In this document: positions 1,513 to 59,737 of the stretch, in pieces
How positions within the stretch are numbered: the stretch's first letter is position 1
Layout: the number at the start of each line of letters is the position of its first letter
Origin: Hyphomicrobiales bacterium
GTDB taxonomy: Bacteria; Pseudomonadota; Alphaproteobacteria; Rhizobiales; Rhizobiaceae
DNA length: 64,000 nucleotides
Assembly: GCA_900469445.1 (NCBI GenBank)
Contig: UBXM01000002.1
Location: 62,001 to 126,000, forward strand
Direction: 5' to 3'
Program-made: the position numbers and the translations under genes
Notes under the pieces: generated by a model
Database searches by the model: none
Told to the model about the DNA's origin: nothing
What the model saw: only the letters and a program-made list of their open reading frames with translations

Positions 1513-1537
1513 GGAACTCCGGGAGGGGAAAGCAGTT
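1513..1537 (+). promoter_or_regulatory. EcfG-type promoter, GGAAC-N16-AGTT
   Basis: GGAAC at 1513-1517 and AGTT at 1534-1537, ending 26 nt before the DUF892 start. It matches the alphaproteobacterial general-stress sigma pattern GGAAC-N16/17-CGTT except at the first -10 base. Confidence 0.7.
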
Positions 1538-1562
1538 CGTGGTTCGTCAAAAGGAGGCAATG

Positions 1563-2075
1563 ATGTCTGACGATAAAACGAGAGATATTTTCATTACCGG
1601 TCTGAAGAACGCTCACGCGATGGAGAACCAGGCGCTCTCCATCATGAAACCTCAGGTCAAGCGAATTGAGAACTATCCAGATGTGGCAGCGAGGCTCGAA
1701 GAGCATATCCGGGAGACGGAAGGACAAATAAGCCGTCTGGATGAAATCCTGACATCCCTCGCCGAGGAAAGCTCCTCGTTGAAGGATGCTGCTCTGTCCT
1801 TCACCGGCTCGATGGCTGCACTCGGCCATACCGTCGCCCGGGACGAGATCCTCAAGAACAGCATGGCGAATTTCGCATTCGAGCACTTCGAAATTGCGGC
1901 TTACAAATCGCTGATCACCATAGCCGAACTGGGCGGCTTTGCAGCGATGGTCGATCCCTTACAAGCCAATCTCGGCGAGGAAATCGCGATGGCTGCCTGG
2001 CTTGAAGACAACCTCCGTCCGACGACGATCAAGTTCGCCAACCTCAAGGAAGCAGGCGTCTCCGCAAAAACATAG
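1563..2075 (+). CDS. DUF892 (YciE/YciF) ferritin-like protein
   Basis: A 170-residue protein of the DUF892 family, four-helix ferritin-like proteins made under stress. Their exact reaction is not established. Recognisable features are the opening DIFITGLKNAHAMENQALS, the central EEHIRETEGQISRLD helix and the FEHFEIAAYKSLI helix, which carries the Glu/His residues these bundles use to bind metal. The start is ATG 1563, with AGGAGG at 1552-1557 at good spacing; ATG 1560 is the alternative. An EcfG-type promoter sits just upstream. A diverged paralogue lies on the other strand at 2740-3240. Two tiny genes follow downstream and may share the transcript. Confidence 0.88.
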   Translation: MSDDKTRDIFITGLKNAHAMENQALSIMKPQVKRIENYPDVAARLEEHIRETEGQISRLDEILTSLAEESSSLKDAALSFTGSMAALGHTVARDEILKNSMANFAFEHFEIAAYKSLITIAELGGFAAMVDPLQANLGEEIAMAAWLEDNLRPTTIKFANLKEAGVSAKT

Positions 2076-2125
2076 CCGTCTGATCTCGTTCATTTAGCAG
2101 ACGAACAACGTGAAAGGGAATACAA

Positions 2126-2272
2126 ATGACTGATCCCGCGAAATCGAGCCCGGAAAGCGATGCGGCACGCTCTGATGCGAAAACTGCCGATGAAAACCGG
2201 GAGGCTTTAAAGAAGCGTGCTAAACAAAGCCTCGAAGAGAGCAGGGGCGAGCGATCGCGCGATGGAACATGA
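2126..2272 (+). CDS. Small hydrophilic protein (48 aa)
   Basis: A short frame starting at ATG 2126 after the purine-rich stretch GAAAGGGAA. The product is strongly charged and probably disordered, with an Asp/Glu/Lys/Arg-rich C-terminal helix (ENREALKKRAKQSLEESRGE). Its last codons overlap the ATG of the next small gene (ATGA at 2269-2272), which supports both being translated. The family is not recognised. It probably belongs to the DUF892 transcript. Confidence 0.5.
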   Translation: MTDPAKSSPESDAARSDAKTADENREALKKRAKQSLEESRGERSRDGT

Positions 2273-2427
2273 CCCCGGGCGGCCCGACTCGGAAAGGCTT
2301 ATTCATCGCTCTAGCGCTTGTCGCAGCCGTCGTCCTAATCAGTGGTGTGATCTATGTAATGCGGATGCCTTCCGGTGCGCCGCCGAAAGCCCAGCCATCT
2401 CCTCATGCCATTGATCAAGGTGGTTGA
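2269..2427 (+). CDS. Small single-pass membrane protein (52 aa)
   Basis: Begins at ATG 2269 within the stop of the preceding frame. A short basic start (MTPGGPTRKG) is followed by one hydrophobic helix (residues about 11-31) and a Pro/Ser-rich tail. The overlap and the clean membrane helix make it a likely real gene despite its length. Function unknown. Confidence 0.5.
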   Translation: MTPGGPTRKGLFIALALVAAVVLISGVIYVMRMPSGAPPKAQPSPHAIDQGG

Positions 2428-2499
2428 GGCGGCAGAATAAGAAAACGATGGCGGATGTCCGCCATCGTCTCAAGTTCATCTCGATCGGCGACGCTAAAT

Positions 2500-2679
2500 T
2501 TAATACTCTTCATCGTCCCAGCTTGCAGCAGCGCTATTTGTCTTATTCTCTCCTTGGCCGGCATCCCACTCGGCGCTGGCTTGGGCCCATTGCTCGGCAT
2601 CCTGGCCATCGGGCCGCCCTGCCTCTTCCCAGAGTTCATAAGCTCGTTTTGCTATCCACTCCTCGCGATCGGTACCCAT
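2500..2679 (-). CDS. DUF2934 small protein
   Basis: A 59-residue protein with the DUF2934 signature: REEWIAKRAYELWEEAGRPD followed by DAEQWAQASAEW. The family is small and of unknown function, common in rhizobia and often beside stress genes. The start at 2679 has a strong AGGAGGAAGAT ribosome-binding site. It lies 60 nt downstream of the minus-strand DUF892 gene, separated by a long GC-rich hairpin, so the two probably share the EcfG-type promoter at 3276-3300. Two further DUF2934 copies are present at 22516 (interrupted) and 38324. Confidence 0.75.
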   Translation of the reverse strand: MGTDREEWIAKRAYELWEEAGRPDGQDAEQWAQASAEWDAGQGENKTNSAAASWDDEEY

Positions 2680-2702
2680 ATCTTCCTCCTATAAATCGTT
2701 TT

Positions 2703-2734
2703 GCCGCCGGCGAGCAGCCGCGCTCGCCGGCGGC
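2703..2734. other. 12-bp perfect inverted repeat between two stress genes
   Basis: Arms 2703-2714 and 2723-2734 are perfectly complementary, with an 8-nt loop. The hairpin lies in the 60-nt gap between the minus-strand DUF892 gene and the DUF2934 gene. There is no T-tract on either side, so it is more likely an intercistronic mRNA element (processing, stability or partial termination) than a classic terminator. Confidence 0.6.
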
Positions 2735-2739
2735 GATAG

Positions 2740-3240
2740 TCACGCGCCCTTGTTGGCGCCCTTGAGGTTTGCAGACGACTCGCCAAGCTGGGTGAGAAGC
2801 TTGTCGGTTTCGAGCTCCTCCTGAAGGTTGGCATCGAGCAGGGGAATAGCGTCCTTCAGACCAAGCTGGCCGGCCCAACTTTTCAGGGTGCCGTAGCGTG
2901 CGATCTCGTAATGCTCGACAGCCTGGGCCGACGCGATCAGGCCAGCATCCAGCGCGACGGAGCCTTTGAATTCGTCGATGATTTCTTCGGCTTCGGCGAT
3001 GATGCCCTGGATGGCTTCGCAGGTCTTGCCACGGGCCGGCTTGCCAAGAAGCTCAAAGACCTGCTGCAGACGTTCGATCTGCCCTTCGGTCTGCTCCTTA
3101 TGCTTGAGAAAAGCCGCTTTGCCGTCTTCCGACTGCGATGCACGCGCCATCTTCGGCAAGGCCTTCAGAATCTGCCTTTCAGCGTAGTAGATGTCCTTTA
3201 GCGTATCGAGGAACAGGTCGTCTAGAGTCTTCTCAGCCAT
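2740..3240 (-). CDS. DUF892 (YciE/YciF) ferritin-like protein
   Basis: A 166-residue DUF892 protein. The typical opening is KTLDDLFLDTLKDIYYAERQ, followed by LPKMARASQSEDGKAAFLKH, EQTEGQIERLQQVFELLGK and the late QAVEHYEIARYGTLKSWA helix. The start at 3240 is preceded by AAAAGGAGCTATA; an upstream in-frame ATG at 3276 falls inside the promoter and is not used. It is closer to the family norm than the copy at 1563. The promoter at 3276-3300 places it under the general-stress sigma factor. Confidence 0.9.
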   Translation of the reverse strand: MAEKTLDDLFLDTLKDIYYAERQILKALPKMARASQSEDGKAAFLKHKEQTEGQIERLQQVFELLGKPARGKTCEAIQGIIAEAEEIIDEFKGSVALDAGLIASAQAVEHYEIARYGTLKSWAGQLGLKDAIPLLDANLQEELETDKLLTQLGESSANLKGANKGA

Positions 3241-3275
3241 TATAGCTCCTTTTGATATCCGAATTGGCGCATACA

Positions 3276-3300
3276 AACTTTCGGGGAAATTGAAAGTTCC
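3276..3300 (-). promoter_or_regulatory. EcfG-type promoter, GGAAC-N16-AGTT
   Basis: On the minus strand, GGAAC is the complement of 3296-3300 and AGTT of 3276-3279. It ends 36 nt before the DUF892 start at 3240. The remaining 3301-3549 holds nothing else that I can identify. Confidence 0.7.
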
Positions 3301-3549
3301 AAGCGCGTTTAGAAGAAAATCGGAGTTGAAATTGCCTTGCCCTGCAGACCTGTTGTCATTGGATCAAACCCACTTATCGGGCTTGAGGATAGTCGGCTCG
3401 TCAGCACGATTGGAAGAGTGCTGAAGGTCGCTTTCGAAGCCGTCGTTGAAGAGCGTAGCACCATACCTTAGCCCGTTCGCCCAGTCATGAGTTCGGCATG
3501 TTCTTTTAAATCGGTAGCAGGCCATTTTAAATCTTCGACTCGCATCTTC

Positions 3550-4725
3550 TCACGCTGTCATAACAACCTTGATGCAGTTGTCTTTCTTGTCGCGGAACGT
3601 CTCGTAGAGCTCCGGTCCCTGATCAAGAGTAGCGCGATGGGTTATGATAAAGCTCGGATCGATCTCGCCCTCTTCGATGCGGCGAAGGAGATCAAGCGAG
3701 TAACGATTAACATGCGTCTGCCCAGTTCTGATCGTCAGGCCTTTGTTCATCGCCGCCCCGAACGGGATCTTGTCCAGAAAGCCGCCGTAGACGCCGGGAA
3801 CAGAAACGATGCCGCCAGGGCGGCACGTCATGATCGCTGTTCTAAGGACATGCGGGCGGTCGGTTCCCAGCAAAGTTGCGGCTTTCACCTTGTCGATGAT
3901 TGCGTCAAATGATGCGGTTGCGTGGGATTCTGCGCCGACGGCATCAATGCATTTGTCGGCGCCATGACCTGTCGTCATGTCCTTGATGTAATCGGGAACA
4001 GTGCCCTCGATCTCATCGAAGTTGATAATCTCCGCACCGGCTGCAGCGGCGAGAGCCAGACGCTCAGGCACGTTGTCAACTGCGATGACGCGCGCCGCGC
4101 CTTGCATGAACGCGCTTTTGATGCAAAACTGGCCGACGGGGCCACAGCCCCAGATCGCAACGATATCTGTCGGTTCGATTTCGCAATTGGCGGCCGCCAT
4201 CCATCCGGTAGGGAAAATATCGCCGAGGAAAAGAGCCTGCTCGTCCGAAACGCCATTTGGAATAATGATGGGCGAGACGTCCGCATAGGGCACGCGCACA
4301 AATTCCGCCTGGCCGCCAGCATAAGCTCCCGTCAGGTGAGAATATCCAAAGAGACCGGCAGTAGGATAGCCAAAGGCTTTGGTGGCATTCTCAGCCTTGC
4401 GGTTGGACCTTTCACAAACCGACCAATTGCCTTTGAGGCATTGTGAGCATTCGCCGCAGCAGATTGTGAAGGGGACGACAACGCGATCTCCCACCCTAAG
4501 CTTTTTGTTGCCGCGGCCGACTTCGACGACTTCGCCCATAAACTCATGACCAAGGATGTCTCCCTTTTCCATAAAGGGGATGTAGCCGTCCATCAAATGG
4601 AGGTCGGATCCGCAAATTGCGCAGGCTGACATTTTGATGATCACATCGCGATCATCTTCGATTTGGGGATCAGGAACGCTATCGCATCGAATATCGCCCT
4701 TGCCGTGCCAGCATAGTGCTTTCAT
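3550..4725 (-). CDS. Zinc-dependent alcohol dehydrogenase (MDR family)
   Basis: A 391-residue medium-chain dehydrogenase of the glutathione-dependent formaldehyde dehydrogenase-like group. Visible motifs are the catalytic zinc site ([19 protein letters not shown]), the structural zinc cysteines ([17 protein letters not shown]) and a Rossmann motif near residue 190 ([10 protein letters not shown]). The substrate cannot be read from sequence. Start: AAAGGAG is followed by two adjacent ATGs (4728 and 4725), and 4725 has the better spacing. It lies 16 nt downstream of a membrane-protein gene that carries an EcfG-type promoter, so both are probably induced together. Confidence 0.88.
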
Positions 4726-4744
4726 CATTATCTCCTTTTGTGGT

Positions 4745-5098
4745 TTAGGATGCGGTGCCTGTCGCTCGAATTTGTGTGATAAACGCGAGGACAACGGCCA
4801 ATCCGCCGATGGTATGGACCACCCAGTGGATCGCTGGAGGAAAGTCGACAATGCTTGGGGCAACAAGCATGACGACACCGAACAGGACGTCCAGTGTCAA
4901 ATGGAAACGGACCCGAAGAAACCGGATGACGCCGAGTTCGTAATCGGTGAACAAGCTATAGAAGACGGCAAATAGGCCCAGGCAAATCAGCGTTATGAAG
5001 GCTGCGCCTTGAAGAGGGACGGCGATCGCCATTGCTATCGCAATAAGCCCAACAAGGTAGTCGAGAATTCCGTGCAGACGGGTTGGGATGAAACGCAT
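4745..5098 (-). CDS. Four-helix integral membrane protein
   Basis: A 117-residue hydrophobic protein with about four membrane segments (residues 10-30, 34-52, 66-84 and 89-108). It resembles the small SPW-type or acid-resistance-type membrane proteins, but I cannot assign a family with certainty. It is the first gene of a probable two-gene transcript with the zinc dehydrogenase. An EcfG-type promoter ends about 33 nt upstream. Confidence 0.7.
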
Positions 5099-5130
5099 AG
5101 TGGGCCTCTCCAGTAACTCAGCATATCGCG

Positions 5131-5155
5131 AACCGGAGGAAGAGGAGTTAGTTCC
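5131..5155 (-). promoter_or_regulatory. EcfG-type promoter, GGAAC-N16-GGTT
   Basis: The minus-strand GGAAC is the complement of 5151-5155 and GGTT of 5131-5134, 33 nt before the start at 5098. It is arranged divergently with the plus-strand site at 5182-5206. Confidence 0.7.
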
Positions 5156-5181
5156 AGTCGGTTAGAATTTAAAATCCGGTT

Positions 5182-5206
5182 GGAACTCCGAAGTCTGGCG
5201 ACTGTT
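5182..5206 (+). promoter_or_regulatory. EcfG-type promoter, GGAAC-N16-TGTT
   Basis: GGAAC at 5182-5186 and TGTT at 5203-5206, pointing at the receiver gene. The leader would be about 109 nt, longer than at most other sites. Confidence 0.5.
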
Positions 5207-5314
5207 CGCTGGATGTCAGAGCTCGGCATCTTGCTGCCGCTCATCAGGGTCGGAGCGACTGGTCCTTGTGGTGATGGATAATTTCCACTAACTCAAACCG
5301 GCTGTGAGGTTGCG

Positions 5315-5707
5315 TTGGACAATTCGATTTATCTGAGCCTTTTCGCGGGTAAGAACATTCTGATCGTCGAGGACGAGTATTTTCTCGCCGATGAGACCCG
5401 TCAACAGCTGGAACAGCTTGGTGCCACCGTTGTTGGTCCCGCCGCAAACGTGGAAGACGCTCTTGAACTCATCGCGTTATCTAAAATCGACGGTGCGATC
5501 CTGGATATTCATTTGGGAGATCAGTTTGTGTTTCCCGTCGCGGAAGAACTCGATCAGGCTGACGTCCCCTTCGTATTCGCGACGGGATACGATCCAGCCA
5601 TGATACCGGCGAGATTTTCAGGCTTTGCCTTGTGTGGAAAGCCTACGGAGCTGGGAAGGATCGCCGTGGCTCTTTTTGGGCCTGATGGAGGAGCTGCCCT
5701 CAACTAA
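5315..5707 (+). CDS. Single-domain response regulator (receiver)
   Basis: A 130-residue CheY-like receiver without an output domain. The acidic pocket is in ILIVEDEYFLAD. The phosphoacceptor Asp is in GAILDIHLGD near residue 70. The conserved Thr is in FATGYD and the Lys in CGKPTELG. The frame has no ATG: a stop lies at 5279 and the only good start is TTG 5315, preceded by GTGAGG. It converges with the sigma-factor gene, leaving a one-base gap. It lacks the sigma-like domain of PhyR, so it is not the classical anti-anti-sigma factor. A role in the same signalling pathway is plausible but unproven. Confidence 0.82.
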   Translation: MDNSIYLSLFAGKNILIVEDEYFLADETRQQLEQLGATVVGPAANVEDALELIALSKIDGAILDIHLGDQFVFPVAEELDQADVPFVFATGYDPAMIPARFSGFALCGKPTELGRIAVALFGPDGGAALN

Positions 5708-5708
5708 T

Positions 5709-6209
5709 CTATTCGCCATTGATCACGGTCCAGAGCTGAAGTCTGGCGCGATTGACGCGGCTTTTCATTGTTCCAAGGGCGCAACCGCATCGACAAGCCG
5801 CGTCCTCATAGCTTAGGCAGTCGATGAAGATCATTTCAATCGCTTCTCGGTGGTGGTCAGGTAGGCCGGAAATTGCCCGTTCGAGTTCTTGTCCCCGGAG
5901 GCTCCATTCCTGCGTAGCAGGAACGCTGACTTGCAGCGCAGTATCGTCCGAGAGACCAACGTCCTCGCGCTTGGTCAACCCAAATTTGGTGCAGAATGTA
6001 TTCCGCATAATCGTGAAGAGCCAAGACCTTAGCTGTGTACCCCGTTGAAACTTTTCCTCGTTTGCGATCGCCTTGACGTAAGTTTCCTGCACCAGATCGT
6101 CGGCTTCGGTCGGCGAAGCATGAAACCGGCGTGCAAAGTTTCGAAGCGCTGGCATATGCGCGAGAAGCTCGACTTCGGTGAAGCCTGTCTGCTTGGCTTG
6201 GTGTTGCAT
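5709..6209 (-). CDS. ECF sigma factor, EcfG/RpoE2-like
   Basis: A 166-residue group IV sigma factor. Region 2 is visible as MPALRNFARRFHASPTEADD with LVQETYVKAI. Region 4 is GLPDHHREAIEMIFIDCLSY followed by GCALGTMKSRVNRARLQLW, the pattern seen in EcfG-type general-stress sigma factors, which recognise GGAAC and CGTT elements. Its own upstream region carries that promoter 24 nt before the ATG at 6209, implying autoregulation. No NepR-like anti-sigma gene is visible nearby. In this family activity is normally released by phosphorylated PhyR binding NepR. Here the regulators would have to be elsewhere, or this paralogue works differently. Confidence 0.85.
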   Translation of the reverse strand: MQHQAKQTGFTEVELLAHMPALRNFARRFHASPTEADDLVQETYVKAIANEEKFQRGTQLRSWLFTIMRNTFCTKFGLTKREDVGLSDDTALQVSVPATQEWSLRGQELERAISGLPDHHREAIEMIFIDCLSYEDAACRCGCALGTMKSRVNRARLQLWTVINGE

Positions 6210-6232
6210 GAGATTCTCCCATCATCCTACGG

Positions 6233-6257
6233 AACCGCAATGATCCTCCATCGTTCC
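6233..6257 (-). promoter_or_regulatory. EcfG-type promoter upstream of the sigma gene, GGAAC-N16-GGTT
   Basis: The minus-strand GGAAC is the complement of 6253-6257 and GGTT of 6233-6236, 24 nt from the sigma-factor start. This suggests positive autoregulation or control by a paralogous EcfG. Confidence 0.72.
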
Positions 6258-6979: not shown

Positions 6980-9900
6980 TCAACTTCGCTTGACCTTACG
7001 GCCAACATTGTCGAAAACTCGCTCGAAAAATGATAACTGCTCATCGGTAGTCTGTGGTGTGCCTTCAACGATGAGCTTGTCGTCGCGGCAAACGCCTCTG
7101 GTCGTTTTGACCAAAGCGGTGACTAGGCGTGCCGATGCCCTGTTGGTAAATGCGATTGCAGCGGCCTTCGGTCCTGCTTCTAGTTTCGCAATACCGAGTT
7201 CACCTGCCGCGAGCAGCAAACGATGGGTCCGCAAGAGGCGCTTCACCTCGAGCGGTGGACTGCCGAACCGGTCATCGAATTCTTCTTCCAGATCATCGAT
7301 CTCCCGTAACGTTGATGCCCGTGACAGCTTTGCGTAAAGGTTGAGCCTTACAGAAGGATCCGTGACATAATCTGCGGGTATCGAGTCAGTCACTCCAAGG
7401 TGAAGGACGGGACGATTGAGGGGCACGGAAGAATGCTTGCGCAGTTTTGCGACCGCGTCTGCAAGCAGCCTTTGATAGAGTCCAGTGCCCATAACCCTAA
7501 CGTGCCCAGCCTGGTCCTCGCCGGCTAGGTCACCTCCACCTCGCAGATCGAAATCTCGGAGGCTAATGGCCAGACCGGCGCCAAGGCGGTCGTTTTCGAC
7601 GACCGTCGCTAGTCGCAACTGGGTGTCCTCAGGCTGTTCCTTTCCTTCTTCAGTGAAGAAATAAGCCATCCCCTGTGCCGCCGCACGCCCGACTCGTCCA
7701 CGCAGCTGGTGAAGCTGTGCCAAGCCGAACCATTCCGCGTTCAATATGAATATCGTGTTTGCACGCGGCACATCGACGCCGTTTTCGATAATGTTTGTCG
7801 CCAGAAGAATGTCACCATGACCTTCCGCAAAGTTCACGATCGTTTCATCAATGGCAGCGGCCTGCATCTTGCCGTGAGCGACCTTGATTGACAGCTCCGG
7901 AACAATCGTGCGCAACCTTGCCTCTATGCCCTCTATCTCTTCAATACGCGGTACGACAACGAAGCTTTGACCGCCGCGTCTGTACTCGCGCATTAAACCG
8001 GTCCGCATAGATGCGCTGTCAAACGCAGCAAGAAAGGTTCGAACGGGCCGCCGTTTTAGGGGCGGGTTAGCGAGGAGACTGACCGCCTGAACACCAACCA
8101 TGGCGGACTGCAATGTCCGCGGGATAGGCGTTGCCGACATTGCTAGTGTATGAAGGGAGGGCGCGAGATTGATCATCGCACGTTTTTCTTTTATCCCGAA
8201 GCGATGCTCTTCGTCGATGATCAACAGTGAAAGACGAGCAAAGTTGACATCCTTGGAAAGGATTGCCTGGGTTGCGATGATAATGTCCGTTTCGCCCTCG
8301 GCAAGTGTCGCCTTGACGCGTTTCGCCACGCTCGGTTTGAGAAGGCGCGATAACATGGCGACCTTCAAACCCGTTCCCTCAAAGCGACGCTCGAAGGTGG
8401 CAAAGTGCTGGCGTGCGAGGACGGTGGTAGGAGCGACGATAGCGACTTGGCCGCCAGAGAGTGCCACCGCCGCCGCCGCTCGCAGCGCGATTTCAGTTTT
8501 CCCGAACCCCACATCGCCGCAGATAAGCCGGTTCATAACCTTTCCCGCTGCAAGATCTGACATGACAGATGCTATCGCTTCTGCCTGATCGGGAGTTTCG
8601 GCGTATGGAAAGCGTCGAATGAAGGCGGAAAAGTCAGCGCGTGACGGTGTGAATTTCCCGGCCTGCGATGTTTCCCTCTGCCGGGCAATTTTCAGAAGGT
8701 GACGCGCTGTGGCATGGATGTCTGAAGCGATCTTCTCCCGCCTTTTCTGCCAGGCATCGGAGTGCAGACGATCGAGCGTCACCGCCTCTGGTTCAGAACT
8801 ATAACGCCATAATTTTCCGAAGTCCTCCATCGGCACGAGTACAGAGGTTTCGTCACGATATCGCAAGCGTGCCGCGTCTCTCGGCATGCCGTCGACGACT
8901 ATGGTTTCCAGATCTTCGAGAACACCAACACCGTAGTCCTCGTGAACGACGGCCTCGCCGATCCGGAGCTCCGGTTCGGCTAAGAGTGTGCTGGCCTCAT
9001 TACTTACTCCCGTTTCGTTCGCGACAGCGATCACCACTACTTTTGCCGCGTCATCTATAAAGCTTTCTTGCAGCTCACAATGCAGTCTTAGCAGCGACCC
9101 GGGTGTAGCCTCATTCACCGCTTCCCACTTATCGATAGGACGAGGCGTGATACCGCTTGCCTTCAAAACTCGCCGAGATAGCGCTTCGGATCTTTTGCCG
9201 CGCCCGCAAATGACAACCTTTAGGCCCTGCTGCAGCTCATCCTGGATGAATTCGACCAACGAGCGTTGTTGACCGGCGTTAGATATCTCAGGCGGGAGAA
9301 AACGATTGCCTCCCAGATCGAGCGCGCCCGATGAGCTCGTGCTGATATACTGATGCCATTCTTCGTGGGCGAGATATGGCGACCGCACGGGAAGAGAGTT
9401 GTTTTCAAGATTTCCCTCGCGGACTTGACGGGCGTCCTCTATGATTTCCAGATACCGCTTTACCCGCTCTTGCGCGCCAGCAGCCAGATGCAGAGCGGTA
9501 TCGCCCATAAGGTCGAAGACTGTTGGCATGTCCGGATAGAGACGCATCAGCAGTCGCTCCATGGTATCTGCCATTGGCGCGGCATTCTTCGACCCAGTTT
9601 CCTTGAATATGGCTTCCGATGCCGGACCTACGACGACGCGGTCGAGATAACTCTCAGTGCGTTGCGACACTCGGTCAAAGCCCTTGAGTTCTTCAACCAC
9701 TCCCCCTTCCGAAAGGACAATCCGCATCGGGCCAGGTGCGCCGGCCGGGTAAATGTCCGTCACGCCTTCGCGCACGGCCACCTCGCCTGGATCGTCGGCC
9801 ACTGATTCTTCTCGATAGCCTGTGCGCTGGATGAACTCGAAAAATGCGCCGTGATCGAATGGCGCACCCACCACAAGCTCAAACTGGCTCATTTTTATGA

Positions 9901-10270
9901 CAGAGTAGGGTGGGAGACGCTGCAGAGTAGTATCAACTGAGGTAAGCAACAGTCTCGGCGCGTTGCCAGCGGAGCACCAGATGCGCAAGGCGTCCATCCG
10001 CCGACCCATACAATGACGAGAAGGCGGTACGCGATCGTACGGCAGACAATCCCAAGGAGGCAGAACGACAAGATCTACGGCGGGGAAAAGGGCGCCCATT
10101 GCCCCGGCAATTTCGTCGACATGCCGTTCGCTCAAAGCAATGTAGCAGAGCGGCTTTTCGGTCTTTTGCATCGTGGCGGCTAGCCTGCTTGCGATAAACC
10201 CGGCAGGCGATTGCTTACTGTGAACGTTCTCGCCGAGGATGGGAGATGTCGCCTCTATCTGTGTCCCCAT
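6980..10270 (-). CDS. mfd: Transcription-repair coupling factor paralogue (Mfd-like)
   Basis: A 1096-residue Mfd-type translocase, slightly shorter than housekeeping Mfd. In order it shows a UvrB-like N-terminal region (about residues 20-330), a CarD-type RNA polymerase-interaction domain (GEAVVHEDYGVGVLEDLE), an SF2 helicase core with Walker A (GDVGFGKTE), the DEEH box (LLIIDEEHRFG) and MSATPIPRT, the GRVGRAAAQG motif, and a C-terminal TRCF domain. Mfd removes stalled RNA polymerase and recruits UvrA. The start at ATG 10270 follows GGCAGGAG; upstream GTG 10294 and ATG 10276 are less well placed. Rhizobia often carry a second copy outside the core genome, and I infer this is that copy. I found no EcfG-type promoter for it. 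Confidence 0.87.
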   Translation of the reverse strand: MGTQIEATSPILGENVHSKQSPAGFIASRLAATMQKTEKPLCYIALSERHVDEIAGAMGALFPAVDLVVLPPWDCLPYDRVPPSRHCMGRRMDALRIWCSAGNAPRLLLTSVDTTLQRLPPYSVIKMSQFELVVGAPFDHGAFFEFIQRTGYREESVADDPGEVAVREGVTDIYPAGAPGPMRIVLSEGGVVEELKGFDRVSQRTESYLDRVVVGPASEAIFKETGSKNAAPMADTMERLLMRLYPDMPTVFDLMGDTALHLAAGAQERVKRYLEIIEDARQVREGNLENNSLPVRSPYLAHEEWHQYISTSSSGALDLGGNRFLPPEISNAGQQRSLVEFIQDELQQGLKVVICGRGKRSEALSRRVLKASGITPRPIDKWEAVNEATPGSLLRLHCELQESFIDDAAKVVVIAVANETGVSNEASTLLAEPELRIGEAVVHEDYGVGVLEDLETIVVDGMPRDAARLRYRDETSVLVPMEDFGKLWRYSSEPEAVTLDRLHSDAWQKRREKIASDIHATARHLLKIARQRETSQAGKFTPSRADFSAFIRRFPYAETPDQAEAIASVMSDLAAGKVMNRLICGDVGFGKTEIALRAAAAVALSGGQVAIVAPTTVLARQHFATFERRFEGTGLKVAMLSRLLKPSVAKRVKATLAEGETDIIIATQAILSKDVNFARLSLLIIDEEHRFGIKEKRAMINLAPSLHTLAMSATPIPRTLQSAMVGVQAVSLLANPPLKRRPVRTFLAAFDSASMRTGLMREYRRGGQSFVVVPRIEEIEGIEARLRTIVPELSIKVAHGKMQAAAIDETIVNFAEGHGDILLATNIIENGVDVPRANTIFILNAEWFGLAQLHQLRGRVGRAAAQGMAYFFTEEGKEQPEDTQLRLATVVENDRLGAGLAISLRDFDLRGGGDLAGEDQAGHVRVMGTGLYQRLLADAVAKLRKHSSVPLNRPVLHLGVTDSIPADYVTDPSVRLNLYAKLSRASTLREIDDLEEEFDDRFGSPPLEVKRLLRTHRLLLAAGELGIAKLEAGPKAAAIAFTNRASARLVTALVKTTRGVCRDDKLIVEGTPQTTDEQLSFFERVFDNVGRKVKRS

Positions 10271-10334: not shown

Positions 10335-10359
10335 GGAACACACGCGATGTAACTCGGTT
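10335..10359 (+). promoter_or_regulatory. EcfG-type promoter, GGAAC-N16-GGTT
   Basis: GGAAC at 10335-10339 and GGTT at 10356-10359, pointing at the EAL gene with a leader of about 120 nt. Confidence 0.5.
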
Positions 10360-14232: not shown

Positions 14233-14257
14233 GGAACCGAAAACCGCCTCATTTGTT
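14233..14257 (+). promoter_or_regulatory. EcfG-type promoter, GGAAC-N16-TGTT
   Basis: GGAAC at 14233-14237 and TGTT at 14254-14257, ending 28 nt before the DUF2945 start. It lies inside the longer open frame from 14186, which argues that the upstream part of that frame is not translated. Confidence 0.7.
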
Positions 14258-16931: not shown

Positions 16932-16957
16932 GGAACCACCGAGCGCGGCTGGTAGTT
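16932..16957 (+). promoter_or_regulatory. EcfG-type promoter, GGAAC-N17-AGTT
   Basis: GGAAC at 16932-16936 and AGTT at 16954-16957, ending 34 nt before the small-gene operon. It is one of the sites with a 17-nt spacer. Confidence 0.62.
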
Positions 16958-17793: not shown

Positions 17794-20487
17794 ATGATGC
17801 CTGACAACCTGAGCAAATACCGCGCTAAGCGCGACTTCAAGAAAACCGCCGAGCCGAGCGGGGAGGTCGCAGTAAAGGCGTCGAACCGTCGTCGCTTCGT
17901 AATCCAGAAGCATGACGCAACGCGCCTTCACTACGATTTGCGCATTGAGATGGACGGGGTGTTCAAGTCCTGGGCCGTCACGAAGGGGCCATCTCTCGAT
18001 CCGCAAGACAAGCGTCTAGCCGTTGAGGTCGAAGATCACCCTCTGGACTACGGGGACTTCGAGGGGACGATCCCGAAAGGTCAGTACGGCGGGGGCACGG
18101 TCATGCTTTGGGATCGCGGATACTGGCAGCCGGAAGGCAATAAGACCCCGGAGCAAGCGTTGGCGAAAGGCGACTTCAAGTTCACGCTCGATGGTGCGCG
18201 CTTGCACGGCAGCTTTGTGCTCGTTCGGATGCGCAGCCGTGATGGCGAAAAACGAACCAACTGGCTCCTGATCAAACACAATGATGACTTCTCGGTCGAC
18301 GAGGATGGGGGCTCTATACTTGAGGAGAAGGTCACTTCCGTCGCATCTGGCAGGACTATGGAAGCGATCGCGGCCGGTAAGGGAAAAAAGCCGAAGCCGT
18401 TCATGACAACTGACGGTGCTGTCGAGGCCGACGCGGTGTGGGATCGCAGCGAAGGGCTTGCGGCCGAAGAACGAGCGGCAGGTGTTAGGACGACGACTTT
18501 AAAGAAGGCCAAATCGAAACCGAATCCAAAGCCGCGTGCTCAATCAATGCGGATGCCCGATTTTGTCGCACCCCAACTGTGCGAGACCTTGCAGCGGCCG
18601 CCGGCCGTGGAGGGATGGATACATGAGATCAAGTTTGACGGATATCGTATTCAGATGCGGGTCGAGGACGGGGAGGTTACATTAAAGACCCGCAAGGGAC
18701 TGGATTGGACTGCAAAGTATCCGGCAATTGCCAAATCTGCAGCAGAGCTGCCGGATGCAATCATCGATGGCGAGATCTGCGCCTTGGACGGAAACGGCGC
18801 ACCAGATTTCGCCGCTCTGCAAGCGGCGCTTTCGGAGGGAAAGACCGACGATCTTGTATTCTTCGCGTTCGATTTCCTCTTCGAAGGCGAGTCAGATTTG
18901 AGGAGCTTACCCCTTAGTAATCGCAAGGATCGTTTGGCTGAACTCCTAGCCAATGCCGGAGACGACCCCCGCTTGCGATTTGTCGAGCATTTCGAGACCG
19001 GTGGCGATGCCGTTTTGAAGTCAGCTTGTCGGCTTTCGTTGGAGGGAATTGTCTCCAAAAAAAGCGATGCCGCATATCAGTCTGGCCGCTCCGATACCTG
19101 GGCCAAATCCAAATGCCGAGCAGGGCATGAGGTGGTGATTGGCGCTTATGCTACGACGAACGGAGCGTTTCGGTCCCTCTTGGTAGGAGTTTATCGCGGT
19201 GATCATTTCGTCTACGTCGGCAGGGTTGGTACAGGTTACGGCGCAAAGGTCGTTGATCAGATATTGCCACAACTGGAGAAGCTGAAGACGTCGAAGTCCC
19301 CGTTCACTGGCATCGGTGCGCCTAAGCAATCGGCTGACATCATCTGGTTGAAGCCGGAACTCGTCGCCGAGATAGAATTTGCAGGCTGGACCGCAGACGG
19401 CCAGGTGCGCCAGGCCTCGTTCAAGGGCTTGCGAGAAGACAAGCCTGCAAAAGAGGTGGAAGCCGAAAAACCTGCCGAGCCTGACAAGGTCGGAACACCT
19501 GAGCCCAATAACGCACCAAAATCGGCTCCATCTCCACGGGAGAAACCCTCTCGGTTGCGCAAGGGCGCGAAGGTCGATGTCATGGGCGTGCTCATCTCCA
19601 GCCCAGACAAAGAGCTTTGGCCCGACGCTCTTGAGGGCGAACCGGTCACCAAGGTCGACCTCGCCCAATATTATGAGGCAGTCGGCCCGTGGCTCATCGA
19701 TCACATCAAGGGGCGACCTTGCTCAATCATTCGGACCCCCGACGGGATCGGCGGTGAGCAGTTCTTCCAACGTCATGCGATGCGGGGAACGTCGAACCTG
19801 ATCGAGCAGGTCAAGGTGTCCGGTGACAAGCAGCCGTACCTACAGATCGATCGGATCGAAGGCCTCGCGGCCGTTGCGCAGATTGGAGGCACAGAGCTTC
19901 ATCCGTGGAACTGCGAGCCCTCTCAACCGGACGTCCCTGGCCGATTGGTCTTCGATCTTGACCCTGGTCCCGATGTTGATTTCGACACAGTTATTGAAGG
20001 CGCGCGGGAGATCCGAGACCGCTTGGAAGAACTGGGATTGATAAGCTTCTGCAAGACCACAGGGGGCAAAGGCCTTCATGTGGTAACGCCGCTATCGGTG
20101 CCTAAGGGAAGGAAGCTAAACTGGGATCAAGGAAAGGCGTTTGCCCGAGATGTTTGCCAGGCAATGGCACGGGACAACCCGGAGCTATACCTGATCAAGA
20201 TGTCTAAGGCCCAACGGAACGGCCGCATATTCCTGGATTACCTTCGCAACGACAGGACCTCGACGGCGGTCGCTCCTTTTTCGCCTCGTGCTCGACCGGG
20301 CGCAACCGTTTCGATGCCGCTTAATTGGAGCCAAGTGAAAAAAGGTCTCAACCCGAAGCGCTTCACTATCCGTACCGTTCCAGTTATCCTGAAAGACAAT
20401 ACAGCATGGCAGGACTACTGCGATGGCCAGCGATCATTGGAGCAAGCAATAAAGCGGCTGGAGAAGGCGTTTAACCGGGCAGCATGA
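17794..20487 (+). CDS. ligD: ATP-dependent DNA ligase D (LigD)
   Basis: An 897-residue three-domain enzyme of bacterial non-homologous end joining. The N-terminal 3'-phosphoesterase has [20 protein letters not shown] near residues 33-52, followed by [14 protein letters not shown]. The central ligase has the nucleotidyl-acceptor Lys near residue 280 ([10 protein letters not shown]), [11 protein letters not shown] and EGIVSKK. The C-terminal archaeo-eukaryotic primase-type polymerase has [11 protein letters not shown] and [20 protein letters not shown]. All key residues appear present. ATG 17797 is an adjacent alternative start. Its usual partner Ku is not intact here: only a 115-residue Ku-like remnant is present at 21079-21426. 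Confidence 0.93.
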
Positions 20488-22800: not shown

Positions 22801-22919
22801 AACTCCTGTTTGGAACAAACCTTAGGGATGCTACCCTCCACTAGCGGCCTGGATGAAGGTTGCCGCGCACTTCGAGAGCGCTAGCTTCACGAGAGCTATA
22901 ATATTTGATAGGCGAGTTG

Positions 22920-23963
22920 ATGCCGCAATATAGATCGTCTCTTTCATTGGACCGTTTCCTTGAGTGGTCCCTAGAGCACGAGATACCAAAGGCCTATCGG
23001 TTCGTTTTCGTGACCGTCATTGTGGTCGCCGTTGGTGTGTTCAGGACATTATTCGTCACCTCTCTTTTGCCTTGGCTTTTCTTCATTCCCGTCATCGTCC
23101 TAAGCGGGCTGATGTTCGGTCGGAGCTGGGGCCTTTATGCCAGCACGCTGTCTACAGTCGCAGCAGGCGTCACGATTTCCGATCCGCAAAACCCCCTTTG
23201 GCTATCCGGGCCTCAATGGGCTGGCAGCATCCTGTTTTTAGTCGTGACCCTCGGCCTCGCATGGCTTGCTGCCGAACTCCGATCGGCCTTCGCGCGTTAT
23301 CGGAGCCTCGCTAAACGGCATGAAAGTACGAACGGAGAGCTAAAACAGGCCGAGAGCCAACAATTGCTGCTCAACGAAGAGCTTAGCCACAGACTAAAAA
23401 ACGTCCTCGCCGTCGTCCAGTCGGTTGTATCCCAAACCCTGAGGCAGGCAAGCGACCTCCCTTCTGCGAGTACCGCCATCTCGGCCAGGTTGGTTGCGCT
23501 CGGCGATGCTACAACCGTTTTGACGGCGAACTCCTGGTCTTCGGCCGACATGATGACGATGATCGAGAAAGTCCTCGGACCGCACGGGGCGATTGGCGTG
23601 CGGATCATTGCAAAGGGGCCGCCGTTGACCCTCAATCCACGTGGTGCGCTTGCATTTGCCCTGGCGCTCCATGAACTTGCCACGAACGCGGCGAAATATG
23701 GTGCGCTGTCAAACGAGACAGGCAGGATTGAGTTGACGTGGTCAGTCGGACATGTTGAAGGCAAGGCTTGCCTCAAGCTTCTGTGGCGGGAAGTGGGAGG
23801 TCCGACGGTGAAACCGCCGAAACGTCGTGGGTTTGGGTCAACGATGATTGAACGTTCCCTTAGAGCTTACTTCCGAGGCGAGGCAAATATGGATTACCGT
23901 TCCGACGGGCTGAGGTTCGAAGTCGACTGCGATCTTGAGGCGGCCGGGATTGTGAAGGCTTGA
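22920..23963 (+). CDS. HWE-family sensor histidine kinase
   Basis: A 347-residue membrane histidine kinase. The N-terminal region has about four membrane helices in a compact DUF4118-like block (residues 25-115). A coiled linker follows. The HWE/HisKA_2 dimerisation box has the phosphoacceptor His (EELSHRLKNVLAVVQSVVSQ). The ATPase has HELATNAAKYGALS, the LLWREVGGP motif (WxE of the HWE family) and RRGFGSTMIERSL. The start at ATG 22920 follows TAGGCGAG. It is followed 3 nt later by a receiver gene, its probable partner. HWE kinases commonly feed the general-stress pathway in this group. Confidence 0.88.
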   Translation: MPQYRSSLSLDRFLEWSLEHEIPKAYRFVFVTVIVVAVGVFRTLFVTSLLPWLFFIPVIVLSGLMFGRSWGLYASTLSTVAAGVTISDPQNPLWLSGPQWAGSILFLVVTLGLAWLAAELRSAFARYRSLAKRHESTNGELKQAESQQLLLNEELSHRLKNVLAVVQSVVSQTLRQASDLPSASTAISARLVALGDATTVLTANSWSSADMMTMIEKVLGPHGAIGVRIIAKGPPLTLNPRGALAFALALHELATNAAKYGALSNETGRIELTWSVGHVEGKACLKLLWREVGGPTVKPPKRRGFGSTMIERSLRAYFRGEANMDYRSDGLRFEVDCDLEAAGIVKA

Positions 23964-34298: not shown

Positions 34299-34324
34299 AA
34301 CCCCGTTAGGTTGACCGTGGTTCC
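34299..34324 (-). promoter_or_regulatory. EcfG-type promoter, GGAAC-N17-GGTT
   Basis: The minus-strand GGAAC is the complement of 34320-34324 and GGTT of 34299-34302, ending 33 nt before the start at 34266. It would drive the small acidic gene and probably the cupin gene. Confidence 0.65.
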
Positions 34325-40309: not shown

Positions 40310-40334
40310 GGAACTACGTACTCATGAGGAGGTT
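40310..40334 (+). promoter_or_regulatory. EcfG-type promoter, GGAAC-N16-GGTT
   Basis: GGAAC at 40310-40314 and GGTT at 40331-40334, ending 27 nt before the DUF3833 start. Confidence 0.7.
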
Positions 40335-41276: not shown

Positions 41277-41301
41277 AACTACCCAGGTGGTTCCTTGTTC
41301 C
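41277..41301 (-). promoter_or_regulatory. EcfG-type promoter, GGAAC-N16-AGTT
   Basis: The minus-strand GGAAC is the complement of 41297-41301 and AGTT of 41277-41280, 36 nt from the start at 41241. An overlapping second GGAAC in the spacer (complement of 41290-41294) has no matching -10. Confidence 0.68.
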
Positions 41302-44094: not shown

Positions 44095-44120
44095 AACGGA
44101 TTGCGCTAAATTTATGTTCC
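44095..44120 (-). promoter_or_regulatory. EcfG-type promoter, consensus GGAAC-N17-CGTT
   Basis: The minus-strand GGAAC is the complement of 44116-44120 and CGTT of 44095-44098. A full consensus match, ending 33 nt before the GTG start of the BON gene. Confidence 0.78.
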
Positions 44121-46812: not shown

Positions 46813-46814
46813 AC

Positions 46815-53982: not shown

Positions 53983-54007
53983 AACCCGCGTGTGTCCCAA
54001 CTGTTCC
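53983..54007 (-). promoter_or_regulatory. EcfG-type promoter, GGAAC-N16-GGTT
   Basis: The minus-strand GGAAC is the complement of 54003-54007 and GGTT of 53983-53986, 28 nt before the DUF4142 start. Confidence 0.72.
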
Positions 54008-57365: not shown

Positions 57366-57390
57366 GGAACAAGTAGACTTCTGGAGGGTT
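57366..57390 (+). promoter_or_regulatory. Possible EcfG-type promoter overlapping the ribosome-binding site
   Basis: GGAAC at 57366-57370 and GGTT at 57387-57390, only 9 nt from the ATG at 57399. The GGAGGG ribosome-binding site lies inside the spacer and -10. If used, the transcript would be leaderless or nearly so; otherwise the match is chance. Confidence 0.4.
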
Positions 57391-57398: not shown

Positions 57399-58373
57399 AT
57401 GAAAAAGCTCAGTCTCGCCGCCCTCGGTTTCGCCCTGTTTAGCACAACAGCTCTTGCGGGAAATGTCACCGCCGACATGATCAATTCGGCCGCCCTCCAG
57501 ACCCTATCACCGGAGCGCCCGCGTGAACCGCCGAATGAACCCCATCCGGCAATAGTCCGTCTGCAGGTGCTGCTCGACCGGGCCGGATCCTCACCTGGAG
57601 TGATAGACGGTTTCTATGGAGAGAATGTCAGCAAGGCGATCGCGGGTGTCGAGGCCATGAACGGACTGCCGGTCGACGGCAAGCTCGACCCTGATGTCAT
57701 CGCGCTTATTGAGAACGACCAGCCTCTGGTCGGTAGCTATGAGATTACCGCAGACGACGCCAAAGGCATTGTGGCATCCATCCCCAAGGACTATGCCGAG
57801 CAGGCGTCGATGAAATACTTGGGGTTCACTAGCGTCGCCGAAAAGCTGGCCGAACGATTCCATATGGACATCGATTTGCTAAATGCACTCAATCCAGGAT
57901 CCCGATACGCCGCGGGCGATGCGGTCTTCGTGTCGGCGCCGGATCGTCCCAAGGCGGGCAGCGTAAAACGTATCGAAGCGCATGGTGAGTCAGGCCAGGT
58001 CTTTGTCTTCGACGAGGCCGACAAGATCATCGCCGTCTACCCGGCGACGATCGGAAGCGAGGACAACCCCTCGCCGTCCGGCAGACATGAGATCAACGGT
58101 GTCGCGAAGATGCCAAAATACACCTACAACCCGAAGGTCAACTTTCAGCAGGGTCAGAACAAGAAGATCCTCGAGCTGCCGGGCGGCCCGAATAATCCGG
58201 TCGGCACCGTCTGGATTGATCTGTCCGAGCCGACCTATGGCATCCATGGGACGCCGGAGCCCGAGAAGATCGACAAGGCGGGGTCACATGGCTGCATACG
58301 CCTTTCAAACTGGGACGTCGAGGAGTTGGCCGCGATGGTGAAGCCCGGTGTAATGGTCGATATCCTACCATAG
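57399..58373 (+). CDS. L,D-transpeptidase (YkuD) with LysM-like region
   Basis: A 324-residue periplasmic enzyme. It has a signal peptide (KKLSLAALGFALFSTTALAG), a peptidoglycan-binding-like region (VRLQVLLDRAGSSPGVIDGF, residues about 53-105), a LysM-like segment (SVAEKLAERFHMDIDLLNAL) and a C-terminal YkuD domain. The catalytic motif is HGTPEPEKID, then GSHGCIRLSN with the Cys nucleophile. It makes 3-3 cross-links or attaches proteins to peptidoglycan. The start at ATG 57399 has GGAGGG at 57383. Envelope remodelling fits the other envelope-stress genes here. Confidence 0.9.
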   Translation: MKKLSLAALGFALFSTTALAGNVTADMINSAALQTLSPERPREPPNEPHPAIVRLQVLLDRAGSSPGVIDGFYGENVSKAIAGVEAMNGLPVDGKLDPDVIALIENDQPLVGSYEITADDAKGIVASIPKDYAEQASMKYLGFTSVAEKLAERFHMDIDLLNALNPGSRYAAGDAVFVSAPDRPKAGSVKRIEAHGESGQVFVFDEADKIIAVYPATIGSEDNPSPSGRHEINGVAKMPKYTYNPKVNFQQGQNKKILELPGGPNNPVGTVWIDLSEPTYGIHGTPEPEKIDKAGSHGCIRLSNWDVEELAAMVKPGVMVDILP

Positions 58374-58451
58374 GGAAGAGCCAGATCTCCGGTCAAAGTG
58401 AAAAGCTATCTGTAGACGATCCGCCGTCGCCCCACCTTTTGATCCGACTTC

Positions 58452-58643
58452 CTAGCTACTGACGATATCCTTGGCCAGTTCGAGCTGGGCAGCGAGCCTC
58501 TCCTCCACCTGTCTGTCGATGTCCGGCAGTGAGCGACGGAGGCTCTCCCTCTCCTCCGGGCTGGCCGCTCGGAAATAATCGAGGCTGTCACCGCGCGCCA
58601 CGCATACGGCACCGATCACCCGCTTGCCCTCATCACTGGTCAT
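58452..58643 (-). CDS. Small helical protein (63 aa)
   Basis: A 63-residue protein with an N-terminal GKRVIGAVCVARGDSLDYF and a C-terminal charged helix (DRQVEERLAAQLELAKDIV). The start at ATG 58643 is chosen over GTG 58670 because the extra residues look unlike protein. The ribosome-binding site is weak. Unknown family. Confidence 0.45.
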   Translation of the reverse strand: MTSDEGKRVIGAVCVARGDSLDYFRAASPEERESLRRSLPDIDRQVEERLAAQLELAKDIVSS

Positions 58644-58911
58644 CAACGTCGAGCGCCAAGGAATTACCACGCCCTATCTCTGCTATGGTCGATGCCTGCG
58701 AGACGGAGACCGCCAACTGTATTTACTGGCAGATCGACCGTGCGTTCTTCTGAGTTCCGTCGCCTGATATCTCAGACAACGATGGCTCACTGGATAAGCA
58801 CGCCGGCTCGCAGCCACGCGTGCGAAGTTGATTAACAACCGCGCAACCTTTGGTTAGCTTCTTGCTGTGAGCTACCGGCCTCGCGATAGTTTTCGCGCGG
58901 GGGCCTCTTTT

Positions 58912-58937
58912 GGAACATAATAAAGGCTCCTTCCGTT
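58912..58937 (+). promoter_or_regulatory. EcfG-type promoter, consensus GGAAC-N17-CGTT
   Basis: GGAAC at 58912-58916 and CGTT at 58934-58937, a full match to the published pattern, ending 39 nt before the SDR start. Confidence 0.8.
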
Positions 58938-58975
58938 GCGGACCCGAAAAGCCGTTAGCTACAAAGGAGAATTTC

Positions 58976-59737
58976 ATGCAGCGTTTCGTGGACAAGGTCG
59001 TAATCGTAACCGGGGCTGGTTCGGGCATCGGAAGAGCTACTGCCATCCGATTTCTGAACGAGGGCGCAAAGGTCACACTCGTCGGACGTACGAAATCCAA
59101 GCTCGACGAGGTCGCGAAACCCTACCCCGCCGATCAAGTCCTGATTGTCGAGGCCGACGTTTCGAAGGAATTCGATATCGACGACGTTGTTGCGAAGAGT
59201 GTCGAAAGTTTTGGTCGGCTGGACACTCTTGTCAACAATGCCGGTGTGGTTGCGGAAGGCGACGTTGAGTCGCTCTCAACCGAAGACTGGCGCAAGGTGA
59301 TGGCGACTGATCTCGATGGAGTGTTCTTTGCCTCACGCGCTGCGATCCCCCACCTCAAGACGTCTGGTGGATCGATCGTTAACGTCAGCTCGGTATCCGG
59401 CACTGGGGGTGACTGGGGAATGGCTGCCTACAATGCGGCAAAGGGTGGCGTGACGAACCTTACCCGTTCGATGGCAATGGACCATGGCAAAGACGGTGTT
59501 CGCGTGAATGCAGTCTGCCCAAGTTTCACGGTGACAGGAATGACGGACGATATGGTTGAGGACGCAAAGCTCGTCGCGAAGTTCAATGAGCGGTTCGCAC
59601 TTGAAGGACCGGGTAAGCCTGAGGACGTCGCGGCGGTCATCGCGTTTTTGGCAAGCGATGACGCTCGGTTTGTAACCGGTGTCAACCTGCCCGTCGACGG
59701 TGGCATGTCTGCGTCTAACGGTCAGCCGCCCCAATAA
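58976..59737 (+). CDS. Short-chain dehydrogenase/reductase (SDR)
   Basis: A 253-residue classical SDR. It has the cofactor motif TGAGSGIG near residue 12, NNAG near 88, the catalytic Ser in NVSSVSGTGG and YNAAKGG (Tyr/Lys), with C-terminal PSFTVTGMTDD and LPVDGGM. It is similar to glucose 1-dehydrogenase or acetoin-reductase-like SDRs; the substrate is unknown. The start at ATG 58976 has AAAGGAGAATTTC. It has a consensus EcfG promoter. A truncated paralogue lies at 37451-37816. A small gene follows after 11 nt. Confidence 0.9.
   Translation: MQRFVDKVVIVTGAGSGIGRATAIRFLNEGAKVTLVGRTKSKLDEVAKPYPADQVLIVEADVSKEFDIDDVVAKSVESFGRLDTLVNNAGVVAEGDVESLSTEDWRKVMATDLDGVFFASRAAIPHLKTSGGSIVNVSSVSGTGGDWGMAAYNAAKGGVTNLTRSMAMDHGKDGVRVNAVCPSFTVTGMTDDMVEDAKLVAKFNERFALEGPGKPEDVAAVIAFLASDDARFVTGVNLPVDGGMSASNGQPPQ

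Follow-up and report, generated by a model that had tools for sequence, protein, structure and literature searches.

We analyzed a 64-kb window, positions 62,001 to 126,000 of contig C48 in the genome of a soil bacterium of the Rhizobiaceae (79 contigs, 6.29 Mb; 6,293,153 bases; about 56% GC). It contains a gene for an extracytoplasmic function (ECF) sigma factor of the EcfG type and a local excess of sites matching the EcfG-type promoter pattern GGAAC-N16/17-NGTT. The best explanation, which we consider probable, is that this DNA belongs to an accessory general-stress island with an EcfG2-like paralogue that reads its own variant promoter. The window would cut through that island, and its noncanonical sigma factor probably activates its own gene from a GGAAC-N16-GGTT promoter. 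The sigma factor also probably transcribes a stress cluster encoding DUF892 ferritin-like, DUF4142, PRC-barrel, Mn-catalase, and short-chain dehydrogenase/reductase (SDR) proteins along with numerous tiny genes; genes for Ku and ligase and the imuB-dnaE2 genes would lie close to this cluster. Its clade appears to prefer GGAACT-N15-[AGT]GTT-N-G, with a T following the −35 core (the T variant below), and this preference makes a regulon of its own possible beside that of the canonical EcfG.

An exact scan returned 21 matches to GGAAC-N16/17-NGTT in the window, or 20 distinct places when the overlapping pair 6231(+)/6233(-) is counted once. All 16 sites named in an earlier, sequence-only reading of this DNA proved exact in coordinate and strand; 5410(+), 6231(+), 8352(-), 16425(-), and 29908(-) were absent from its list. 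Among the weaker sites that it named, 11431 and 22469 start with GGAAC, and near 16881 GGAAC occurs on the minus strand. One hundred shuffles of the window gave a mean of 3.59 matches and a maximum of 8, and none reached 21. The whole genome has 398 matches compared with 382 for the reversed control pattern, a rate of 4.05 per 64 kb; against that expectation the window, at five times the genome rate, has a Poisson P of 2e-9. In the proposed comparison of density with shuffled sequence and with the rest of the genome, the window exceeds both. Since the genome-wide excess is nearly nil, the signal of these sites is local.

The spacing of the two elements peaks sharply. When GGAAC-Nk-GTT was scanned with k from 10 to 25, the window gave 16 matches at k = 17 (an N16 spacer and the first base of NGTT), 5 at k = 18 (the N17 version), and 0 to 6 at each of the 14 other values. 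Elsewhere in the genome, k = 17 counts were 17 in C26, 13 in the first 60 kb of C48, and 3 in 60 kb of C29. Of the 21 matches, 18 lie for the most part outside called open reading frames (ORFs), which span 70% of the window; genes were called with our own simple hexamer script instead of a standard gene finder, and starts were judged by ribosome-binding site and coding score. With plausible starts chosen in this way, 13 of the 16 named sites end 22 to 41 nucleotides (nt) before a start codon, although one of these, 44095, requires a GTG start and a better-scoring ATG sits 95 nt away. The remaining gaps are 108 nt (5182), 119 nt (10335), and 8 nt (57366). Counts, shuffles, spacing, and placement thus confirm the excess of EcfG-type sites that had been observed in the window. 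Fixed spacing, placement before starts, and conservation before orthologous genes support a predicted promoter function for them.

The sigma gene, the gene convergent with it, and the sites before and to the left of them are as follows:
5709..6209, minus strand: ECF sigma factor, accessory EcfG-type paralogue, 166 amino acids (Pfam Sigma70_r2 56.6, Sigma70_r4_2 51.8, and PhyR_sigma2 46.8 bits)
6233..6257, minus strand: predicted EcfG-type promoter of the sigma gene, 23 nt before its ATG
5315..5707, plus strand: single-domain response regulator, 130 amino acids, with PFVFATGY; Pfam Response_reg only; convergent with the sigma gene
5182..5206, plus strand: T-variant site before the response regulator gene 5315-5707, with a 108-nt leader
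5131..5155, minus strand: T-variant site 32 nt before an SPW-domain gene (4745-5098), present before both homologues found (2/2)
3276..3300, minus strand: T-variant site before a DUF892 gene (2740-3240), present before 8/11 homologues
1513..1537, plus strand: T-variant site before a DUF892 gene (1563-2075), present before 7/11 homologues

A regular-expression search for EcfG-like signatures returned nothing, and the sigma factor was then recovered by a Pfam search. It contains ECF regions 2 and 4, with all three Pfam domains above cutoff, and the same three domains are above cutoff in the sigma factor taken as EcfG2 of Rhizobium etli. Judged from the sequence alone, EcfG-type sites occur both before the gene and in its surroundings. 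The gene adjoins neither nepR nor phyR and therefore lacks the neighborhood of a canonical EcfG1. The sole NepR match of the genome is on contig C75, where it accompanies another EcfG-type sigma factor and a divergent PhyR in a PhyR-NepR-EcfG locus; because this locus, with its own sigma factor, sits there, the sigma factor of the window is accessory rather than canonical. The sequence-only reading was right that an EcfG-type sigma factor lies among the sites; its gene is at 5709-6209(-) and has a conserved site of its own, but the canonical locus is elsewhere. At least four further sigma factors or fragments of this kind are present in the genome, on C75, C52, and C47 and, as an incomplete frame, on C36. 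The last is a 128-amino-acid open frame with an EcfG-like region 4 (C36:15263-15403) and a GGAAC site upstream; by eye it seems to lack region 2, and it is possibly a decayed paralogue.

The nearest relative of the window sigma factor is from Rhizobium wenxiniae DSM 100734 (87%), followed at 81 to 83% by those of Neorhizobium huautlense, Rhizobium sp. NFR07, R. wenxiniae HU50, and Shinella. In our tree, these close relatives, the window sigma factor, and that of locus L054 form one clade (support 100/97), referred to here as clade A. Paralogues of the Rhizobium tropici group form another (100/98), and R. etli EcfG2 and the EcfG1 of our own genome are on poorly resolved or long branches. For comparison, we used 36 related sigma-centered loci, L049 to L084 (688 kb); neither the totals for these loci nor the tree includes L085, from the Ktedonobacterales (27% identity).

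Sites around the closest homologues differ in sequence from those around more distant ones. In L049 to L054 (40 sites), T follows GGAAC in 82% and G is the second base after GTT in 85%; in L067 to L084 (165 sites), A follows GGAAC in 61%. We also counted sites by family, taking those with a plausible start within 130 nt, giving one vote to each downstream gene family, and placing our own island in clade A. Counted in this way, T follows GGAAC in about 17 of the 22 families around clade A sigma factors and in 6 of the 59 around those of clade D (P = 1e-8); G is second after GTT in 18 and 24 of them, respectively (P = 0.001). The lack of C before GTT was considered as a mark of the paralogue and rejected: none of the 40 raw sites of L049 to L054 has C there, yet the family-counted difference was not significant, and for this reason T after GGAAC was adopted as the mark. 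The putative motif GGAACT-N15-[AGT]GTT-N-G around close relatives of the window sigma factor is, we believe, new.

The T variant could then be counted genome by genome. Our own genome has 26 copies versus 10 of the reversed control, and 11 of them fall in the 26 kb ending at the sigma gene; the canonical flavor GGAACAN15CGTT (18 versus 14 for the control) is scattered and uninformative there. The count was extended over 120 genomes, our own included, with 51 other genomes of the same genus as the comparison set. Five relatives carrying a clade A sigma factor (81 to 87% orthologues) have 58, 16, 52, 33, and 18 T-variant sites, compared with a mean of 9.6 and a maximum of 23 in the other 51 (P = 4e-4). 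Removing the loci from which the motif had been derived left 54, 13, 44, 25, and 14 (P = 0.0014). The one-base control GGAACA shows no excess in the same genomes (13, 11, 7, 10, and 12 versus a mean of 12.1 in the others; P = 0.46). This control, a correlation among related genomes, gives the strongest support for a link between the dialect and the clade of the window sigma factor, and the comparison of relatives suggests that the accessory sigma factor may read a promoter signal slightly unlike that read by the main one. In held-out stretches of genomes G013 and G034, 87 sites have k = 17 spacing versus 2 to 11 at other spacings from 11 to 23, and 46 of these 87 lie 15 to 50 nt before starts versus 17 of 68 off-spacing sites. 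Those stretches were picked for holding T-variant sites; the counts of T, non-C, and G in them are not independent and were set aside.

The 36 related loci hold 297 k = 17 sites versus 36 for the reversed control, with 1 to 17 in single loci; site-dense surroundings are common around these accessory sigma factors, though not universal. For 15 of the 30 C48 site-gene pairs looked up, the gene has a homologue in the related loci. An exact site is present within about 160 nt upstream in 60 of 126 gene-locus pairs over the 36 loci and in 29 of 31 in L049 to L053, on a background of 189 of 752 called genes across the 36 loci, which is high because these loci are themselves site dense. In L049 to L053, the T, the GTT, and the G two bases later have been kept while much of the spacer has turned over. 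This retention is seen, where they are present, in the sites before the genes for the response regulator, both DUF892 proteins, the Mn-catalase, the NADH-dehydrogenase-like protein, and the SDR protein. A site of the same form as that before the window sigma gene precedes its homologue in 15 of 36 related loci, with gaps of 17 to 24 nt.

The response regulator convergent with the sigma gene is a stand-alone receiver with the PFxFATG[G/Y] motif, as in the FATGUY regulators MrrA, SdrG, and Sma0114 (PMC5964349). Regulators of this type have been proposed to act as phosphorylation hubs in the general stress response, as shown for Caulobacter MrrA (PMC5964349). The gene for the predicted window regulator differs from them in being convergent with an EcfG paralogue and in carrying the promoter variant of that paralogue's clade. 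A homologue is present in 28 of the 36 related loci, lying 1.5 kb or less from the sigma gene in 25 and tail to tail with it within about 110 nt in 23. Strict PFxFATG is kept in 9 of the 28 homologues; three more have PYVFATGY but are 1.2 to 8 kb away, and in clade D the homologues adjoining the sigma gene depart from the motif. A site like that at 5182 precedes the orthologue in all five closest loci (L049 to L053; leaders of 98 to 112 nt) and precedes 8 of all 28 homologues. We infer that the sigma factor and the response regulator may form a feedback unit.

The distribution of sites along C48 modifies the view of a dedicated regulon packed around the sigma factor. Between 56 and 69 kb, this contig has 12 matches at k = 17, of which 11 are distinct and one lies inside the response regulator gene; they end just to the right of the sigma gene. 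In 27 other stretches of the genome (11.5 to 20 kb), which were chosen, none of them random and some overlapping, there are 0 to 9 each; the highest are C67:38-58 kb (9), C26:40-60 kb (8), C48:40-60 kb (8; overlaps the island), and C52:25-45 kb (7). The sigma gene is the right-hand edge of a denser cluster at about 41 to 68 kb of C48, most of which lies to the left of the window, and sites become sparser rightward. Within the window, k = 17 gives 7 matches (6 distinct) in positions 1 to 6300, where k = 18 gives none, and 9 in positions 6300 to 64000 (57.7 kb), where k = 18 gives 5 and each of 13 other spacings tested gives 0 to 5. Promoter-like sites and, among them, a sigma factor with its own conserved site were thus correctly recognized, but the sites are uneven and not centered on the sigma gene. 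Only 4 of the 16 named sites (1513, 3276, 5131, and 5182) have the full clade-type flavor; the canonical EcfG encoded on C75 or other paralogues may read the remaining 12. Tiny genes of the window would be candidate regulon members.

Left of the window, genes behind island sites encode DUF4142, PRC-barrel, SDR, Mn-catalase, and NADH-dehydrogenase-like proteins, and a Ku gene lies behind one N17 site. Homologues of imuB and dnaE2, two Ku genes, and an ATP-dependent DNA ligase gene are found at C48:29-41 kb. C48 is a 130-kb contig, and repC genes are on C51 and C67 only; assignment of the island to a plasmid by repC was therefore dropped. The stretch to the right of the sigma gene is partly colinear with the complete conjugative plasmid NZ_CP104991.1 of Rhizobium sp. 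CC-CFT758, which has counterparts for three sites, 14233, 16425, and 16932.

Site-dense stretches are also found on C26, C36, C52, and C67. C26 (63 kb) has 17 k = 17 sites, of which 9 show a C in front of GTT, and its sole region 4 match reads as a LuxR-type response regulator rather than a sigma factor; C26 is possibly an island read by the canonical EcfG. The contig of the C52:25-45 kb stretch encodes a further EcfG-type paralogue, next to which are two N17 CGTT sites in divergent orientation, and that of the C67:38-58 kb stretch carries a repC gene.

Several results weigh against a paralogue with its own dialect. C before GTT is found in 2 of 22 families around clade A versus 15 of 59 around clade D, a difference that is not significant (P = 0.13). 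Two of the five clade A genomes, with 16 and 18 T-variant sites, fall within the range of the others (maximum, 23), and these genomes are interrelated, such that the five values are not fully independent. The full T variant is missing from 12 of the 16 named sites, and in the sigma gene's own promoter GGAAC is followed by G instead of T, both in our genome and in the six closest loci, L049 to L054. Among the 30 site-gene pairs, the 15 without a homologue in the related loci lie mostly to the right of the sigma gene. The sites beside the presumed EcfG2 of R. etli have no T after GGAAC, and the dialect would thus not extend to that sigma factor, which is poorly placed in the tree. Upstream of R. 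etli katG, which is reported to be ecfG2 controlled, the scan gave no exact site, and this gene was dropped as proof of the motif. Finally, RpoE5, the other ECF15 member of Sinorhizobium meliloti, has one putative target (PMC6180224), and an accessory EcfG can therefore be nearly idle.

An evenly balanced possibility is that two regulons overlap in the window, the sites to the left of about 6.3 kb being read by the local sigma factor and those to the right being a mixture read by the canonical EcfG or by the paralogues encoded on C52 and C47, with some chance matches. The flavor of the sites differs on either side of the sigma gene, and the three right-hand sites with counterparts on the conjugative plasmid lack the T variant. 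This scenario is nevertheless compatible with the island explanation and differs from it in emphasis alone, and the local sigma factor may tolerate other bases. For many window sites that lie away from the sigma gene and lack the T, recognition by the canonical EcfG or by other paralogues is more likely.

It is unlikely, in our view, that all of these sites are ordinary targets of the canonical EcfG concentrated on accessory replicons, with the paralogue being one more target that has few or no genes of its own and the flavors reflecting drift among related islands. The genome does have a complete PhyR-NepR-EcfG locus, and C26 is dense as well, with its frequent C before GTT (9/17) and no sigma factor recognized by region 4. 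In S. meliloti, rpoE5 is among the genes that RpoE2 activates, while its product has about one target (PMC6180224). Against this scenario, the T variant, unlike the A variant, tracks the clade A sigma factor across genomes, its sites are most concentrated at the sigma gene, and the ecfG1 and ecfG2 gene sets of R. etli are partly distinct (PMC3892343). Chance or composition, with eight fixed bases in 56% GC sequence, is already contradicted locally and scarcely credible: although the pattern is no commoner than its reversal genome-wide, the shuffles, the spacing control, the placement before starts, and the conservation all argue against it.

The closest known parallel to the island is R. etli EcfG2 (PF00052, on p42f), which is accessory, plasmid borne, away from nepR and phyR, and reported as autoregulated (PMC3892343). 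It is 51% identical to the window sigma factor over 151 amino acids, and beside its gene are a ferritin-like gene and clustered GGAAC-N16-NGTT sites; we infer from family and position that RHE_RS26680 is this protein. The first 90 kb of p42f contain 17 k = 17 matches (16 distinct), 11 of them (10 distinct) at 54.4 to 67 kb around the sigma gene (P = 2e-6, with one overlapping pair counted twice). These 11 sites have A or C after GGAAC, never T, and one has C before GTT. In this stretch (L087:8885-22000), one site lies within a second ECF sigma gene and others are near ferritin-like genes. R. etli p42f thus shares the clustering of sites and not the T dialect, and it differs from the window further in that no response regulator is annotated adjoining the sigma gene. 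The two R. etli paralogues, EcfG1 and EcfG2, work mostly in parallel. Published work gives GGAAC-N16-CGTT as the motif of EcfG1 and found none for EcfG2; of the 19 units with reduced expression in the ecfG2 mutant, only 1 had a match to the motif of EcfG1 (PMC3892343). Expressed in Escherichia coli, each EcfG favored its own promoter (PMC3892343).

Canonical EcfG/RpoE2 proteins belong to the same sigma family and share the core GGAAC-N16/17-NGTT, but the −10 element is published as CGTT in R. etli (PMC3892343), and, unlike the window sigma gene, their genes adjoin nepR and phyR. S. meliloti RpoE2 has many targets, mostly of unknown function (PMC3616915, PMC6180224), and PRC-barrel proteins and two-component pairs are among those published (PMC6180224). 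RpoE5, encoded on pSymB, resembles the window sigma factor by its published description as an accessory ECF15 member on a secondary replicon and differs from it in having its single putative target, upon overexpression (PMC6180224). Flexible −10 boxes are known in Sphingopyxis (PMC7083833), and the consensus in Methylobacterium is C/GGTT (PMC4814048). Searches of the open-access literature, with subscription papers outside their coverage, yielded no report of a paralogue-specific EcfG promoter variant or of such site clusters around accessory EcfG genes.

The sites to the right of the sigma gene and other genes of the window are as follows:
10335..10359, plus strand: candidate site before an EAL-domain gene (10479-11234), with a 119-nt leader
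14233..14257, plus strand: site before a Hva1_TUDOR (DUF2945) gene (14285-14497); a counterpart of the same type, with an N17 spacer and other letters, precedes the orthologue on NZ_CP104991.1
16425..16449, minus strand: site absent from the earlier list, before a short ORF; conserved on NZ_CP104991.1 (L164:22584), where it precedes a small annotated gene
16932..16957, plus strand: N17 site before a 69-amino-acid gene (16991-17200), with a near-identical site on NZ_CP104991.1
21533..21557, plus strand: site of the CGTT type before a PRC-barrel gene (21591-22241) with no homologue in the related loci searched
34299..34324, minus strand: N17 site before a 76-amino-acid gene (34036-34266), with an N17 site in 1/10 homologues
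40310..40334, plus strand: site before a DUF3833 gene (40361-40840) with no homologue in the related loci searched
41277..41301, minus strand: site before a 108-amino-acid gene (40915-41241) with no homologue in the related loci searched
44095..44120, minus strand: N17 CGTT site 32 nt before a BON-like gene (43787-44062), given its GTG start; the BON match, 23.9 bits, is under the cutoff of 27
53983..54007, minus strand: site before a DUF4142 gene (53428-53955); both related-locus matches (L049, L079) are also those of a second copy at C48:56572 and give no separate evidence
57366..57390, plus strand: doubtful site 8 nt before the ATG of a YkuD (L,D-transpeptidase) gene, overlapping its ribosome-binding site
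58912..58937, plus strand: N17 CGTT site before an SDR gene (58976-59737)
6980..10270, minus strand: gene for a transcription-repair coupling factor (Mfd-like; Pfam TRCF, CarD_TRCF_RID, and helicase domains)
17794..20487, plus strand: gene for a LigD DNA ligase/polymerase (nonhomologous end joining)
22905..23963, plus strand: HWE kinase gene (Pfam HWE_HK, 77 bits)
The window also holds an endonuclease/exonuclease/phosphatase-family (exonuclease III-like) gene. Three transposase-like genes occupy 45763-49516, with megablast matches on Rhizobium plasmids annotated as IS30 and ISNCY family.

Extra EcfG copies occur in many alphaproteobacteria, and their role is debated; a paralogue-specific extended −35/−10 pattern, together with a one-base control, makes the question testable. 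The extended pattern lets regulon members, including tiny genes of unknown function, be listed from sequence. Our results also suggest that stress regulons may travel as physical clusters with their own sigma factor. More tentatively, we propose that the paralogue, the convergent FATGUY regulator, and the GGAACT-N15-[AGT]GTT-N-G promoters constitute a module co-inherited across the Rhizobiaceae, in which the sigma factor would add a second general stress response that a search for the canonical CGTT motif does not see. If this is true, other clades of paralogues would have dialects of their own, such as the A-rich GGAACAA flavor of the R. tropici group.

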